Below, piece by piece: positions 12,337 to 20,393 of a DNA stretch of 64,000 nt (position 1 is the stretch's first letter; each line of letters starts with the position of its first letter). The translations under genes and the position numbers were made by a program. The stretch lies in assembly GCF_900114485.1 (NCBI RefSeq), contig NZ_FOTF01000003.1, positions 62,001 to 126,000 on the forward strand. The letters are read 5' to 3'. The notes under the pieces are model-generated. The model was not told the DNA's origin and made no database searches. It was given only the letters and a program-made list of their open reading frames with translations. This stretch comes from Loktanella salsilacus. Lineage in GTDB: Bacteria > Pseudomonadota > Alphaproteobacteria > Rhodobacterales > Rhodobacteraceae.

Positions 12337-14898
12337 ATGGTATCCAGCTTCATCAATAATACGTCGCTCACAGTTAAGGTGACTATTCTTGCGATATTCT
12401 CGGTCCTGGCGACCAGCGCCACGCTTAGTGTTCTATTTGGTGTAAGTAGCACCAATTTAACGCGGCAGCTTGTTCTGCAAAGTGGTGTAGGCGAAGCGGA
12501 ACTGTTGGGAAATGTCCTTTACGGCCCCACGCGCTTCGATGACGCGGCAGCAGCAAGTCAACTTCTCGAATCCACTATGAACAGCTCGAATGGCGCAGCC
12601 GTTGGTGCCGTAGTTGTAAAGCTTGATGGGACTACAGTTACAGTCAATGGAACACATGCGGCTGACTTGGATGCCTTGGCTGGTGCCATGCAGACCATTC
12701 TTCAACAAGGCGCGGACGGCACGGTTACTGTGGGTAACTACATTTTGGTGCCGATCCGTAAGTCTGGCGCTGATGCTGATGGGGCTGTTGGTCTCTTGGG
12801 TCTCGATTGGCGTGCTGACACAGCAGTTGCCACACTTGTAGGCGCAGAAAAGCAGGCGCTGCTTTACTCGGTCGTTGTTGCTGCCATCGTCATCGGCCTT
12901 GTCATTCTCGGTTCTCGGTATTTGATTATCCGTCCACTCAATGTTCAGCGCGACACGATCCAGCGGATTAGCCAGGGCGAACTGCAGGCGGCGGTGCAGC
13001 AAGGGGACCGCAACGACGAAATCGGCGAGATTGCGCGGTCTACCGACGATCTACGTCAAAAACTGCTCGTCGCCGCCGCAGATCAAAAGGATGCAGCCTA
13101 CAAAGGGGTTGCATTCACCGCAGCGTCCTCTGCCATGATGATGACCTGCGCCGAATACAGAATTAGATATGTCAACCCGGCGATGATCGATCTTCTCGGG
13201 AAGTTTAAAGAATTTATTCCGCAGCTTTCTGATGGTGTGACGATCGAAAAGATCACCAATATGAGCCTCGATGATTTCCACAGCAATGGCACTCAAATAC
13301 GTTCAAGACTGCAAGGAATGGGTGATCAATCAATTAATGTAATGATTGCCTTCGGCGACTCGCGTGTTTCTCTGCGTCTTTCTCAAGTGCTAGACAAAGA
13401 CGGCCAAGGTATTGGGATCATTATGGAATGGTCCGACATTACGGCCGAATGGTTGAACGATGCAATCTTGCAAGGTCTCGACAATCAGCAGCTACGCGCG
13501 GATTTCGATACCTACGGTCGTATCATCTCGGCAAACGTAAATATGTGCCAAGCTCTTGGTGCGACGAGAAAGGATATCGCCGACCGCGACCTCTCGACTT
13601 TTATCCTTGAAGGCGAAGCCGATGAACCGTCTGCTGAAGCCATAAAGTCGCTCGCCGCAGAGAAGGGTTTGTTTGCAGGTCGATTGGCACTCGTCGCGGT
13701 AGATGGTAAAAAAATTATCGCAGATGGAAGTTTGAGCTGTGTGCGCGATGGTGCTGGTGCACCAGTTCGCTACATCCTTCTGGTGCGGGATGTAACTGAA
13801 GCTGAAAATGAAATTTCAGAAGCGCGAGCATCGCGCAGGGCCGCTCAGAAAAACCAAACGATGGTTGTTGATGCACTGCGTATTGGCCTTCGCCAGCTAA
13901 GCGATGGTGACCTAACAGCTTCGATTAGTGCCGCATTTCCAACTGAATACGAAGACCTACGAACTGATTACAACGGTGCGGTTAATACCTTGTCCGAGGC
14001 TATAAGAGGCGTTGTTGAAAACGCGGACAATATATCAAACGAAGCCCGTGACATTTCTAGCAATACTGACAGCCTGTCACGCCGGACGGAAACAACGGCG
14101 GCTACCTTGGAACAAACAGCCGCAGCGTTGAACGAGTTGACGCTTTCGATCCGCGATACGGCGCAAGGTGCAAAGGATGCAGACAGTGCCGTACGCGAGG
14201 CTAAAAAGAATGCCGAGCAAAGCGGTCAAGTCGTTCTGGAAACCGTATCTGCCATGGACCAGATTGCCGATAGTTCTGGACGAATCACGTCAATCATCAA
14301 AGTGATCGACGATATTGCGTTTCAAACGAACCTCCTTGCGCTGAATGCTGGAGTAGAGGCGGCCAGGGCGGGGGACGCCGGCCGCGGTTTCGCGGTCGTC
14401 GCATCAGAAGTCCGAGCTCTCGCTCAGCGTTCATCTGATGCCGCAAGAGAAATTAATGGTCTGATCGACAAGAGCGGTAGTCAGGTCAAATTAGGGGTTG
14501 ATTTGGTCGGTCGAACGGGAGGTGCCCTTCAGCAAATTGTTGAATCAGTATCAAGGATTTCAGGACTTATATCGACAATTGCTGAGTCTTCGCTTTTGCA
14601 GTCTTCAAATCTAAACGAGATAAATAGCTCTCTCAATCAACTGGACCAATCTACTCAACAGAACGCAGCTCGCCTCGAGGAGACAACAGCGGCTAGTGAA
14701 AGTTTGCGAAAGGACGCCGTAACGCTCGTAGAAACCGCATCCTACTTCAAATTGGCAGGCGGCGAGGTCGGAGTGAGAAGTGATAACCCAGTAGTTCCGT
14801 TTCGGGCTAGGCCAAGAACGTCGGTGCCGACTAAAGCCGCCGCGGCATTATCTCAATCTGCTGACGTAGGCGTTGCAGCCGGCTGGGAGGATTTTTAA
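12337..14898 (+). CDS. Methyl-accepting chemotaxis protein with PAS domains and CheR-tether pentapeptide
   Basis: Chemoreceptor of 853 residues. A membrane span lies at about 12-35, a periplasmic region of about 130 residues follows, and the second span is near 170-195, followed by HAMP ([15 protein letters not shown]). Two PAS-like segments follow at about 250-370 and 375-490. The adaptation helices start near 585 ([16 protein letters not shown]). The signalling tip is at about 659-700 ([39 protein letters not shown]). The protein ends GWEDF, matching the C-terminal pentapeptide type (NWETF) that tethers CheR in enteric receptors. It probably receives input from the Cache protein upstream. 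GC content is lower than in flanking genes. Confidence 0.93.
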
Positions 14899-14954: not shown

Positions 14955-15497
14955 ATGAACAACTCTGAAGCCTCTGAGTCACTATCAGGAGAGACAGTCC
15001 GGCATGTAATTCAAGGATCTCATGTTGTTTCAGAAGATCCTTCAACTGTGTTGACTACAATTCTAGGATCCTGCGTTTCTGCATGTATGTGGGATCCAGT
15101 GGCTGGAATTGGTGGAATGAATCATTTCTTGTTGGCTCGCGGCGCTGATGTCGGGGCGGACGGTCATCGCTATGGGTCTCATGCAATGGAATTGCTGATC
15201 AATGATATGTTGAAGCGTGGGGCGTTACGAAGGCGGCTAAAGGTTAAACTATTTGGAGGGGCCATGATTCAAAATAATTTCGCTCGCATAGGGCGTCAAA
15301 ATGCTGAGTTTGCTCTTCAGTTTGTGAAAGATGAGGAGTTTGATCTTGTCTCGCATAGCCTGCTTGGCACGCAAGCACGAAAAGTCAGGTTTAACCCAAC
15401 AACTGGTAGCGCACAACAAAAGTTTCTTACGGATGTCGAATCTCCACCGATTGTCGAGCCAATTCATGTCGCAGCTGACGACATTACATTCTTCTGA
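14955..15497 (+). CDS. cheD: Chemoreceptor glutamine deamidase CheD
   Basis: CheD deamidates glutamines on receptors and in some species helps dephosphorylate CheY with CheC. The protein has 180 residues, with the catalytic Cys in TILGSCVSACMWDP and the family stretch IGGMNHFLLARG, then YGSHAMELLINDML and KLFGGAMI. The C-terminal tail is longer than in minimal CheD proteins. The start lacks a strong ribosome-binding site. The codons are AT-rich compared with genes outside the cluster. Confidence 0.92.
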   Translation: MNNSEASESLSGETVRHVIQGSHVVSEDPSTVLTTILGSCVSACMWDPVAGIGGMNHFLLARGADVGADGHRYGSHAMELLINDMLKRGALRRRLKVKLFGGAMIQNNFARIGRQNAEFALQFVKDEEFDLVSHSLLGTQARKVRFNPTTGSAQQKFLTDVESPPIVEPIHVAADDITFF

Positions 15498-15508
15498 AGG
15501 ATATTTCT

Positions 15509-15784
15509 ATGACACGTGTAGTTCAACTTCCTGAAAAGCTAGATACATCCGCTGCATCTAAGCTCTTAATTGACATAAGTGCCAATCGAGGCGAGCCATT
15601 GGTTTTAGATGCTTCGTGTGTGCGTAAGATTGGTGCTCTCTGCGGGCATATTTTAATATCAACGATTCTGACTTGGCGTAATGATGGGCAAAATTTGAAA
15701 TTAAGAGATTTTGAAGGGATCGCAAATGATCTTACTTTGCTTGGCTTGAGCGAGAAATTTGAAATTAAGGATGCACATTTATGA
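15509..15784 (+). CDS. STAS-domain protein in the chemotaxis cluster
   Basis: A 91-residue single-domain protein of STAS (anti-anti-sigma) type: LVLDASCVRKIGALCGHILI corresponds to the central strand-helix unit, and an LTLLGLSEKFEI end is typical. A GAAGGA site precedes the ATG and the stop overlaps cheY (ATGA). Similar STAS genes sit beside cheY in alphaproteobacterial che operons, often named cheX or slp. Its precise role is not settled; docking to chemotaxis proteins or phospho-switching at a Ser near the motif are possible. About 40 percent GC by eye. Confidence 0.75.
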   Translation: MTRVVQLPEKLDTSAASKLLIDISANRGEPLVLDASCVRKIGALCGHILISTILTWRNDGQNLKLRDFEGIANDLTLLGLSEKFEIKDAHL

Positions 15785-16149
15785 CTCTTAGAATACTTGC
15801 GATTGATGACTCTCGAACTATTCGGGAAATGCTACGTATGGCATTATGCGCAGCCGGGTTCGACGTTCACTTAGCAAGCGATGGTCAAGAGGGTGTCGAG
15901 ATTCTGGAAAAGGTAGATCCGGATGTTGTGATTACAGATATTAACATGCCAAGAATGAATGGATTCGAAGTTATTGAAGCTATTCGTTCAGGCGGAGGGC
16001 TTCGTGCGCTACCAATTTTAGTATTAACTACAGAAAGCGCACAAGATCTTAAAGATCGCGCTAGAAATGCCGGGGCGACGGGGTGGATCGTGAAGCCTTT
16101 CGATGACGCAAAGCTGATCAGTGCGATCCGCCGTATAGCTGCAATCTGA
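15781..16149 (+). CDS. cheY: Chemotaxis response regulator CheY (first copy)
   Basis: Single receiver domain of 122 residues. The acidic pair is D9/D10, the phospho-acceptor D53 (VVITDINMP), the conserved Thr is in LVLTTES and the lysine K105 is in WIVKPF. It accepts phosphate from CheA and either binds the flagellar switch or acts as a phosphate sink; which of the two CheY proteins does what cannot be told here. It overlaps the STAS gene by 4 bases. Confidence 0.93.
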   Translation: MTLRILAIDDSRTIREMLRMALCAAGFDVHLASDGQEGVEILEKVDPDVVITDINMPRMNGFEVIEAIRSGGGLRALPILVLTTESAQDLKDRARNAGATGWIVKPFDDAKLISAIRRIAAI

Positions 16150-16156
16150 GGTTTGT

Positions 16157-18318
16157 ATGAGTACTTTGGAAGATATTCGCCAGACGTTTTTTCAAGAATG
16201 CGAGGAATTGCTTGAATCTCTAGATGACGGATTGGAGCTGTTAAGGGATGGCTTGGATGAAGGGCAACCCGTTGACAGTGAGGCTGTGAATGCAGTTTTT
16301 CGGTCCGTTCATTCAATAAAGGGCGGCGCTGCGGCATTTGGTTTGGAGCAACTAGTTCGGTTTGCACATCGGTTTGAAACAACCCTTGATGATTTGCGCG
16401 CGCTGCGGCTTGTCTTGTCTTTCGATATTCTTGAGGTTTGCTTGAGGGCCGCGGACCAACTTGCCGAATTAGTTTCCGCAGGCCGTGAAGGTCGAACGCT
16501 GGCGGAGGATGCTGGTGCGCAGACCATTGCTAAGTTAATTTCCTTGTCTGGAGGGGGTGATGTGCCTCCTGCTGATGGCGGTGAGGTTGAGGAGGGGTTG
16601 AATACATACGCGCCGATGCCGCTTAACTTTGACCCTAGCCCTATGCTTGAGTGTGACTCAGATAACAAATCTCTATTTAAGATAAGCTTTGCGGCTCAAC
16701 CCAAGCTATTTATGAACGGTCATGATCCAGTCCATCTCTTCCGTGAATTAAGTGAGCTTGGTGATCTTAGTGTTGAATCTGATTTATCGCGTGTCCCATA
16801 TTTAGATAATATTCGGTATGATGACTGTTCGTTGCAGTGGGTTTTAACCTTACTTACAACTGAAGCGGAGGCTGCCTTATGGGAGGTTTTTGATTTTGTC
16901 GTCGACCTATGTACCGTAGAAATCCAAAAAATCGTTCAGGATGGCGAACCATCAATTCACATTGGTGGATGCACTGCCACGGCCATATCCGCCGAAAATG
17001 TTTCGACAGTTACAGAGGGGCCTAGTGTGCCTCTTGCGGCAGAGGTTGCTTCTTATTCAAATACGCAGAGCTCTAACGCTGAACATGTTGCTAAGGCTGC
17101 GCCGATTGCTGCAAAAGCGACGGTGCGCGTAGACTTAGACCATGTTGATCGCCTCATTAATGTCGTAGGAGAATTGGTTATTAACCAAGCAGTGCTCACT
17201 CAGTGTATAACTGCCGCAGATATTCCGATGACCGCAGCATTGTCTTCTAGCCTTGACGAATTCATGTCATTGGCACGTGAAATTCAGGAGGGCGTGATGT
17301 CAATACGAGCGCAATCCGTGAAGCCGCTATTTCAGCGTATGGCACGCATCGCCAGAGAAGCGGCAGACCTAGCTGGTAAAAATGTACGCTTTGAAACTGA
17401 TGGTGAAGCGACCGAGGTTGATAAGACTGTCATGAAAGACTCGTCGACCCACTAACTCATATTATTCGCAACGCGGTCGATCATGGCTTGGAAACTGAAG
17501 AGGGTCGCACCGCTGCCGGCAAGACCGATCCAGGCACTGTAACTTTGCGAGCAGCTCATCGGTCAGGTCGGGTACTTATTGATGTTTCTGATAATGGTGC
17601 TGGTATTAACCGCGCCCGTGTTTTGAAAATTGCTAAGGACAAAGGTCTTGTTCCTGCAGACGCTGTCTTGCCGGATAGCGAAATTGACAAACTTCTTTTC
17701 TTGCCCGGTTTTTCGACTGCGGCCGAGGTGACTGACCTCTCGGGACGCGGTGTCGGAATGGATGTCGTCCGAAGCTCAATCCAAAAGCTTGGCGGCCGGA
17801 TTAACATTACGTCAGAGCCAGGAGCGGGCACAGTCATGTCGATTAGCTTACCGCTAACGCTCGCGGTGCTAGACGGTATGGTTGTCGATGTCGCAGGGCA
17901 GACCATGGTCGTTCCTATCGCCACGATCGTCGAAACGATACGGCCAGAGGCAGGCGATCTTCATAGGCTCGCTGATGGTATGACGGTCGTAGCCGTAAGG
18001 GGGCGATTTATTCCTGTTGTCGATCTCGGGCACGTTTTCAAATTTCGTGAGGCGACCAAGACCTACAGTGACTTAGTGTATCTACTTGTCGAAAGTGATC
18101 ATCAGCAGATGTGGGCGTTAGCCGTGGACCGTATCCATGATCAACGACAGGTCGTGATTAAGGGGCTTGAAGGCAATTATGGGCATGTCCCCGGTGTGGC
18201 GGCAGCCACCATTCTAGGCGACGGAAAAGTCGCTTTGATTATTGATCCTGAAGAAGCTGTACAGCGCACGGACGCTGACCAGCCCGTGCCCGACCACTCT
18301 CAATTGAAGGACTGTTAA
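16157..18318 (+). pseudogene. cheA: Chemotaxis histidine kinase CheA, split by a one-base frameshift
   Basis: Full-length CheA is recognisable over two frames. The first (16157-17455) holds the Hpt domain with H52 (FRSVHSIKGGAAAFG), a variable linker, the dimerisation helices and the start of the ATPase, then runs into a stop after MKDSSTH. One base later in phase (from 17440) the protein continues LVDPLTHIIRNAVDHGLE (N box), DNGAGINRARV (G1), GRGVGMDVV (G2) and the CheW-like P5 domain, to 18318. Counting against other CheA proteins, exactly one base is missing at about 17435-17440, beside an AAA run. No slippery heptamer is present. The kinase is inactive unless the base is a sequencing error. 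Joined, it would be about 720 residues. Confidence 0.88.
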
Positions 18319-18321
18319 GCA

Positions 18322-18792
18322 ATGCAAGCAAATGTGAAAACATTGCCTGATGACGAACGCGAGCTTGTGACATTTCGCGTTGGAGAGCAGGATTTCTGTA
18401 TCGATATTATTTATGTGCGCGAAATTCGAAGTTGGACGCCGGCAACTGTTTTACCACATGCACCAGATTACGTTCTGGGTGTGATTAATTTGCGAGGGGC
18501 AATTGTCCCAATTGTGGACTTGGCGCGCAGACTCGGTTTGCCAAAAACAATGTTAGGGGATCGGCATGTCATCGTTATTGCCGTAGTGGCAGATCAAACG
18601 GTCGGTTTCTTGGTCGATGCCGTATCAGATATTATTGGGGTGGCACCAAGTGCGATACAGCCGACCCCCGATGTGACTGCGCAGACGACCCGGATGTTTA
18701 TTCGTGGCGTGATCGCTTTGGAAGACCGAATGCTCCGGCTGATTGATATCAGCGCAGTGCTGCCACCTCTGGTAGAACAGGCCGCATCATGA
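18322..18792 (+). CDS. cheW: Chemotaxis coupling protein CheW
   Basis: Adaptor that links CheA to receptors, 156 residues. It shows the CheW fold motifs [40 protein letters not shown] and [14 protein letters not shown]. It starts 3 bases after the cheA stop and overlaps cheR by 4 bases, so it belongs to one transcription unit. Codon use is closer to the GC-rich norm than in the upstream half of the cluster. Confidence 0.94.
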
Positions 18793-19649
18793 CATCAATG
18801 TCGCAGGTTTATTCGGCTGCCGAAAGCGCACTGACATGCGACGATGCAAGTTTTCGCGCAATCGCCGATATTTTGCGGCGCGAAACAGGCATCAATTTAC
18901 CCGCTGATAACAGCTCCCTCGTTGTCTCGCGGTTGATCAAGCAGTTGCGTCGTCTCAAGCTTTCGACTTTTGCCGAATATGTTCGTTGGATTGAACAATC
19001 AGCCCACCAAGATGATCGGGCGATTATGATTTCATCCCTGACAACGAATACGACGCACTTTTACCGCGAAGGATATCACTTTGACTTTTTTGTGAGGGAT
19101 ACACTTCCGAAATTGAAAAAAATGGCCGGGCAGGGCACGCGGATTCGGCTTTGGTCTGCAGGCTGTTCGAGTGGAGAAGAGGTCTATAGTCTTGCCGCAA
19201 CTTTGCTGCATCACTGGCCAGAAGTGGCGCTCGCCGATGTGCGGATTCTTGCGACAGACATAAGCGCCGATGCTTTGAATACGGCCAAAGAAGCAAGCTA
19301 TCCGCGTGAAAAACTCGAGTCCGTACCGGAAGACGTGCGAGCGTTGATGTTGCGAGACGCCGATCCAGCTGATGCCATGGTCACAATGCCAGATGCTGTG
19401 CGCGCGTTGGTGTCCGTGCGGTATCTGAACTTTATTGAGCCTTGGCCGACCAGAGGTCCATTTCAGGCAATCCTATGTCGAAACGTTGCGATCTACATGG
19501 ATGACGCTGTGCAAGAACATATTTTCACGGGCCTCGTCGATCAACTGGCTCCACAAGGCGTATTGTTCATCGGCCATTCTGAGAGGTTGCCGCCAAAACT
19601 CGCCGAGAAGATGACGTTAGTCGATCGCACGACTTTTCGCCGGACCTAA
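18789..19649 (+). CDS. cheR: Chemoreceptor methyltransferase CheR
   Basis: Transfers methyl groups from S-adenosylmethionine to receptor glutamates. The protein has 286 residues, with the N-terminal helical domain ([17 protein letters not shown]), the SAM-binding motif [29 protein letters not shown], and [12 protein letters not shown]. The GWEDF tail of the receptor at 12337-14898 is a plausible tether for it. The matching methylesterase cheB is not in this cluster. Confidence 0.94.
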
Positions 19650-19680: not shown

Positions 19681-20067
19681 ATGTCCCTCAAATCAACACT
19701 TTCCATCATGGTCGTAGACGATATGTCGACCAGCCGGGGTCTGATCACCATGGCTCTCGACGAGATCGGCATCAAAAATGTAGATTTTAAAAGCGATGGG
19801 CAGTCCGCCTTGACCGCGCTTGCAGCCCGACCAGTTCATCTTGTGATTTCCGATTATAACATGCCGGGGCTTGATGGCCTGCAGCTTTTGCATGGATTGC
19901 GGACCAATCGCAGTACGCAGCGCATTGGATTTATCCTCGTCAGTGGTCGCCTGGATGACAACATTGTTGCGACGGGGCGCAAGTTGGGCATGAATAACTT
20001 TATCGCAAAGCCCTTTAATACGCAGCAGATGCGTAAATGCATTGAAGCTGTGGTTGGCCCCCTGTGA
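19681..20067 (+). CDS. cheY: Chemotaxis response regulator CheY (second copy)
   Basis: Second single receiver domain, 128 residues: acidic pair D13/D14, phospho-acceptor D58 (LVISDYNMPGLDG), conserved Ser in FILVSGR and Lys in FIAKPF. The ribosome-binding site GGAGG is strong. Its last bases overlap the GTG start of the CheT-like gene. Having two CheY proteins without CheZ is common in alphaproteobacteria, where one may drain phosphate from the other. Confidence 0.92.
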   Translation: MSLKSTLSIMVVDDMSTSRGLITMALDEIGIKNVDFKSDGQSALTALAARPVHLVISDYNMPGLDGLQLLHGLRTNRSTQRIGFILVSGRLDDNIVATGRKLGMNNFIAKPFNTQQMRKCIEAVVGPL

Positions 20068-20393
20068 CGGTATTGGCGAGCGATATCATGTTGCGTCTTT
20101 CGGTGGAGTTAGCACGCGCCTCTGATTTAGCAGTACAGATTGAAGAGACGATGGATCATGGTCAAACGCGCCGGGAACACGACTTGCGCAATGTCCAGAA
20201 CCTCGATTTGCTGGCGCAGACGCTTGCCGATTTGGGGCGTTTCACGCAGGCGCTTGCGCCAATGCTGACGACCCTTGCGGTAAGCCCGGGCACGGCGACT
20301 GGGGGGATGGCACTGCGCGGGGTGGCTGACCGACTAGCTGGGGCCGCTGTCGATCTGCCTGAAGATGCCGGGGGCGACGTTTGCGTTTTCTAA
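20064..20393 (+). CDS. Small helical chemotaxis-cluster protein with DxxxQ motifs (CheT-like)
   Basis: A 109-residue protein starting with GTG that overlaps the cheY stop (GTGA), so it is translationally coupled to cheY. It is almost all helix-forming. Two DxxxQ motifs are visible: D21-Q25, and D48-Q52 in VQNLDLLAQTL; the second resembles the catalytic helix of the CheY phosphatase CheZ (DLTGQ). A short last gene of rhizobial che operons, CheT, has been described with such a motif. I infer a CheY-phosphate phosphatase or CheR/CheY-binding role; homology to CheT itself is not proven. The stop overlaps the oxyR stop by 4 bases on the other strand. Confidence 0.6.
   Translation: MTVLASDIMLRLSVELARASDLAVQIEETMDHGQTRREHDLRNVQNLDLLAQTLADLGRFTQALAPMLTTLAVSPGTATGGMALRGVADRLAGAAVDLPEDAGGDVCVF

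Follow-up and report, generated by a model that had tools for sequence, protein, structure and literature searches.

The window analysed here, 64 kb of contig C47 from a marine Loktanella genome of 4.13 Mb (76 contigs, 100% complete, 0.02% contaminated), contains a chemotaxis cluster encoded on the forward strand in the order mcp, cheD, a 91-aa STAS-like frame, cheY, cheA, cheW, cheR and cheY. The first gene (12337-14898) codes for an intact methyl-accepting chemotaxis protein (MCP) of 853 aa with HAMP, PAS and MCPsignal domains identified by Pfam, and is full-length in comparison with the relatives G001 and G007. It is followed by an intact cheD (14955-15497, PF03975), the 91-aa open frame (15509-15784), which has no Pfam match and was assigned to STAS by eye, and the first of two intact cheY-type response regulators (15781-16149, PF00072). 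Downstream of cheA are located cheW (18322-18792, PF01584), cheR (18789-19649, PF01739 and PF03705) and the second response regulator (19681-20067, PF00072), all of them intact. The sequence-only reading had listed cheW, cheR and both cheY genes as intact; all four are indeed full length, and the list was incomplete, as mcp and cheD are intact as well. No standalone cheB was found in the che cluster, and the single CheB domain of the genome forms part of an open frame of 1179 aa located on a different contig. A 109-aa frame (20064-20393) overlapping the end of the second cheY has no Pfam match, encodes a protein identical to that in the conspecific contig discussed below and is a possible unnamed protein of the che operon.

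The remaining gene, cheA (16157-18318, forward strand), is one base short relative to its intact homologues. Its 5′ frame (16157-17455) comprises 432 aa and ends in EVDKTVMKDSSTH followed by the stop codon, and the 3′ frame (17440-18318, open from 17425) begins with LVDPLTHIIRNAVDHGLE and is in the -1 register relative to the former. The 5′ fragment encodes the Hpt domain (P1), a P2-like linker, the dimerisation domain (P3) and a few P4 residues, after which come foreign residues and the stop; the 3′ fragment encodes the HATPase (P4) and a CheW-like P5 domain. All CheA family domains (P1, P3, P4 and P5) are hence present, split across two frames, with the break inside P4. Pfam assigned Hpt and H-kinase_dim to the 5′ fragment and HATPase_c and CheW (P5) to the 3′ fragment, in agreement with the Hpt and dimerisation regions and the ATPase and P5 domains previously read from the letters. 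The missing base falls between 17433 and 17434, directly before GAAA, at the junction of CAT and GAA; this context is non-repetitive and lies outside any homopolymer. Since the missing base has unlike neighbours and sits in no run, the position of the lesion is unambiguous. Exactly one base is missing, as had been proposed, and its place is slightly upstream of the 17435-17440 interval originally indicated.

The nearest sequence to the window is contig JAGXIQ010000090.1 (G008:C156) of the Loktanella sp. MAG LH_M9, which is 98.6% identical over 14.9 kb, has the same gene order and carries an uninterrupted cheA open frame of 726 aa. Their alignment contains 202 mismatches and three gaps of one base each. 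Two of these gaps are intergenic, ten bases apart and of opposite sign; the third, at the cheA site, is the sole indel within coding sequence over the 14.9 kb. Across this site the frame is open in 80 of the 80 related loci retrieved from other genomes, and the deletion in the window is therefore derived; the consensus at this position in alphaproteobacterial loci is DKTVIERLxDPLTHxIRNAxDHGLE. Relative to intact orthologues the cheA frame is thus disrupted in the window, and the comparison with close relatives that the sequence-only reading had proposed bears out its main claim, a frameshift splitting cheA: the gene has one base fewer than in a contig 98.6-98.9% identical to the window, and none of the relatives is interrupted. 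A plasmid search returned no cheA copy above 67% identity.

The taxonomic affiliation of JAGXIQ010000090.1 deserves attention. LH_M9 carries the genes of this region twice, on C156 at 98.6% identity to the window and on C71, where the genes stand in identical order (end of cheY, oxyR, katG, lacI, a sugar-binding protein and onward) with about 72-78% identity over most of the length. The contamination rating of this MAG (G008) is 4%. Because the C71 genes recur on C156 at 98.6%, the latter is best interpreted as originating from the species of the window and as mis-binned into the LH_M9 MAG; the initial impression that C156 represents a different species was rejected. An intact cheA would then be present in an environmental population of the window's species.

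Codon changes between the two strains amount to 8 synonymous and 1 non-synonymous in the 3′ part of cheA, and to 10 synonymous and 9 non-synonymous, mostly in the variable linker, in the 5′ part. R324 is the one changed site that is conserved in all relatives compared; here the window has the ancestral state and the environmental strain deviates. The polarised changes in the two strains revealed no relaxed selection in the cheA of the window, as would be expected only in older pseudogenes, and its absence is compatible with an error as well as with an event of very recent date. As signs of long-standing relaxation are missing, a loss would be very recent, which agrees with the dating suggested from the sequence. 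The MCP (12337-14898) differs between the same two strains at nine residues, six of them within residues 258-418 (the PAS part), possibly as ligand-related variation.

The genome encodes a single CheA. Both the protein search and a search with the dimerisation domain (PF02895) pointed to this locus only; the protein search gave one other match, which was short and of a generic kinase type. The lesion is not masked by any functional paralogue. Five MCP genes were identified. The flagellar cluster (FliI, FlhA, FliR, FliF, FliG, FlgK, FlgE and FliK) covers export, basal body and hook, and is collinear and unbroken with respect to L. atrilutea over the compared part.

With such a gene complement, translation of cheA is predicted to stop after 432 aa, yielding the Hpt and dimerisation domains with no kinase, and the 3′ half could not be re-initiated together with its ATP-binding N-box. 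With no CheA kinase, CheY would not be phosphorylated through this pathway, and MCP, CheW, CheD and CheR, though intact, would have no output. Flagella would still be built and rotating, so that the cells would be expected to swim without chemotactic steering. As an event this would be ordinary pseudogenisation, a frameshifted gene of modest local interest, and a loss of the pathway presupposes that the base is truly absent. We found no report of this cheA lesion in the literature searched.

The quality of the assembly was assessed by a frameshift-aware comparison with L. atrilutea DSM 29326 (G001), in which 80 genes (95 kb coding) were compared with C47 and 23 genes (20 kb) with the flagellar contig, using stretches of 272 and 40 kb, respectively. 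Among the genes compared (about 115 kb coding) the only genuine frameshift is that of cheA, and as no other gene is broken, the assembly is not indel-rich. Three further candidates on C47 (114413-116243, 184111-185008 and 227216-228909) were rejected as frameshifts, being accounted for by antisense ORFs, an over-extended start and tandem ABC-ATPase paralogues. A lone frameshift in a non-homopolymer context makes an assembly error less likely. Both explanations offered by the sequence-only reading, an error of assembly and a loss of very recent date, still stand, and the site outside homopolymers, the sole indel and the lack of any other frameshift favour the latter. We consider it probable, from these sequence comparisons, that a real and very recent one-base deletion inactivated the only cheA of the sequenced strain, in whose cells the base would be truly missing.

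A deletion that is real may nevertheless be unlike the natural population, having arisen during isolation or laboratory passage or representing a minority variant. The intact allele on the environmental contig JAGXIQ010000090.1 and the occurrence of the deletion in one genome only are both in line with this special case of a real loss, which we regard as plausible, if somewhat short of an even chance.

An assembly or base-calling error, by which the cheA of the strain is intact and the published consensus one base short, appears unlikely. The strain is represented by a single assembly, in which one base can be wrong; the rest of the operon is intact, cheA is fully conserved in its two halves, and the gene is intact in the conspecific contig. 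The 3′ part keeps its old constraint, with decay limited to one base, which speaks against a real loss in that it fits an error equally. However, the junction of CAT and GAA is neither a homopolymer nor a repeat, where indel errors concentrate, and neither a second frameshifted gene in the coding sequence compared with L. atrilutea nor a further coding indel against the conspecific contig was detected.

The least probable explanation is that cheA is expressed as one protein via ribosomal -1 frameshifting, or that its two polypeptides work together as a split kinase, as exemplified by CheA3/CheA4 of R. sphaeroides. A -1 shift in the overlap at 17425-17455 would mend the register, and Hpt-less CheA proteins of P3-P4-P5 composition exist in the family, but the features of programmed frameshifting are absent: GTC ATG AAA GAC TCG contains no slippery heptamer of the form X XXY YYZ, the RNA downstream is no more stably folded than shuffled sequences (z = -0.17), and the relatives, none of which has the break, are in frame. 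As to a split kinase, the downstream frame has its last stop (TAA) at 17422-17424, and its earliest potential start among ATG, GTG and TTG is the TTG at 17488, which comes after the ATP-binding N-box (residues HIIRNAVDHG). A separately translated C-terminal CheA piece starting past the N-box would lack the nucleotide-binding residues of P4, and no working kinase is therefore expected. Both readings were rejected on these grounds, and any functional break in place of a loss, be it unrecognised -1 frameshift readthrough or a reversible off state, is very hard to credit.

The probable loss of cheA can be viewed against the distribution of chemotaxis genes in the family. Two congeners (G002 and G004) possess flagellar FlhA and gave no CheA or MCP match, the absence of CheA in G004 being confirmed by the PF02895 search. 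Among 121 sampled family genomes, FlhA was found in 101 and the CheA dimerisation domain in 62; 46 of the 101 flagellated genomes are devoid of CheA, a count that fragmented genomes may inflate somewhat. Together with the two congeners, this indicates that flagella without chemotaxis are common in this family, in which the loss of chemotaxis with flagella kept is a familiar end state. The main recent survey of flagella in Rhodobacterales states that che genes do not belong to the flagellar clusters and that in P. inhibens they are located on a chromid (PMC12363192). In the literature searched, no paper was found on the absence of CheA in flagellated roseobacters.

Other arrangements occur in the same sample. 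Seven genomes with CheA have no FlhA (G039, G043, G048, G057, G062, G082 and G125), which suggests chemosensory arrays without flagella. Hpt-less CheA (P3-P4-P5 only, about 400 aa) is encoded in G112, G034, G105 and G046. In G034 it is followed by cheR and is the sole CheA found, and in G112, G105 and G046 it is situated 17-19 kb from an flhA of the same high-scoring type as that of the window genome.

If the deletion is real, the strain would provide a snapshot of the first step in the loss of chemotaxis with flagella kept, a state that many relatives have already reached, and, given the nearly identical intact allele, what this step costs or gains could be tested against a single genetic background. 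Should it be an error, all that is required is a note correcting the assembly.

Compared with known systems, the locus is closest to the class II histidine kinase CheA (Hpt, H-kinase_dim, HATPase_c and CheW), with which it shares the four domains, their order and the canonical spacing and residues; the 3′ part aligns end to end, over the whole kinase and P5, with the CheA structures 8c5v, 6s1k and 1b3q. It differs from this class in being one base short, with the domains in two frames. The cheA of the LH_M9 contig resembles that of the window in gene order and nucleotide identity and differs by its intact frame. With the split or Hpt-less CheA of the R. sphaeroides CheA3/CheA4 type the likeness is that parts of the kinase lie on separate polypeptides. 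Natural splits of CheA, however, fall between domains and leave each piece with its own start, whereas the break in the window lies within P4, with no start before the N-box.
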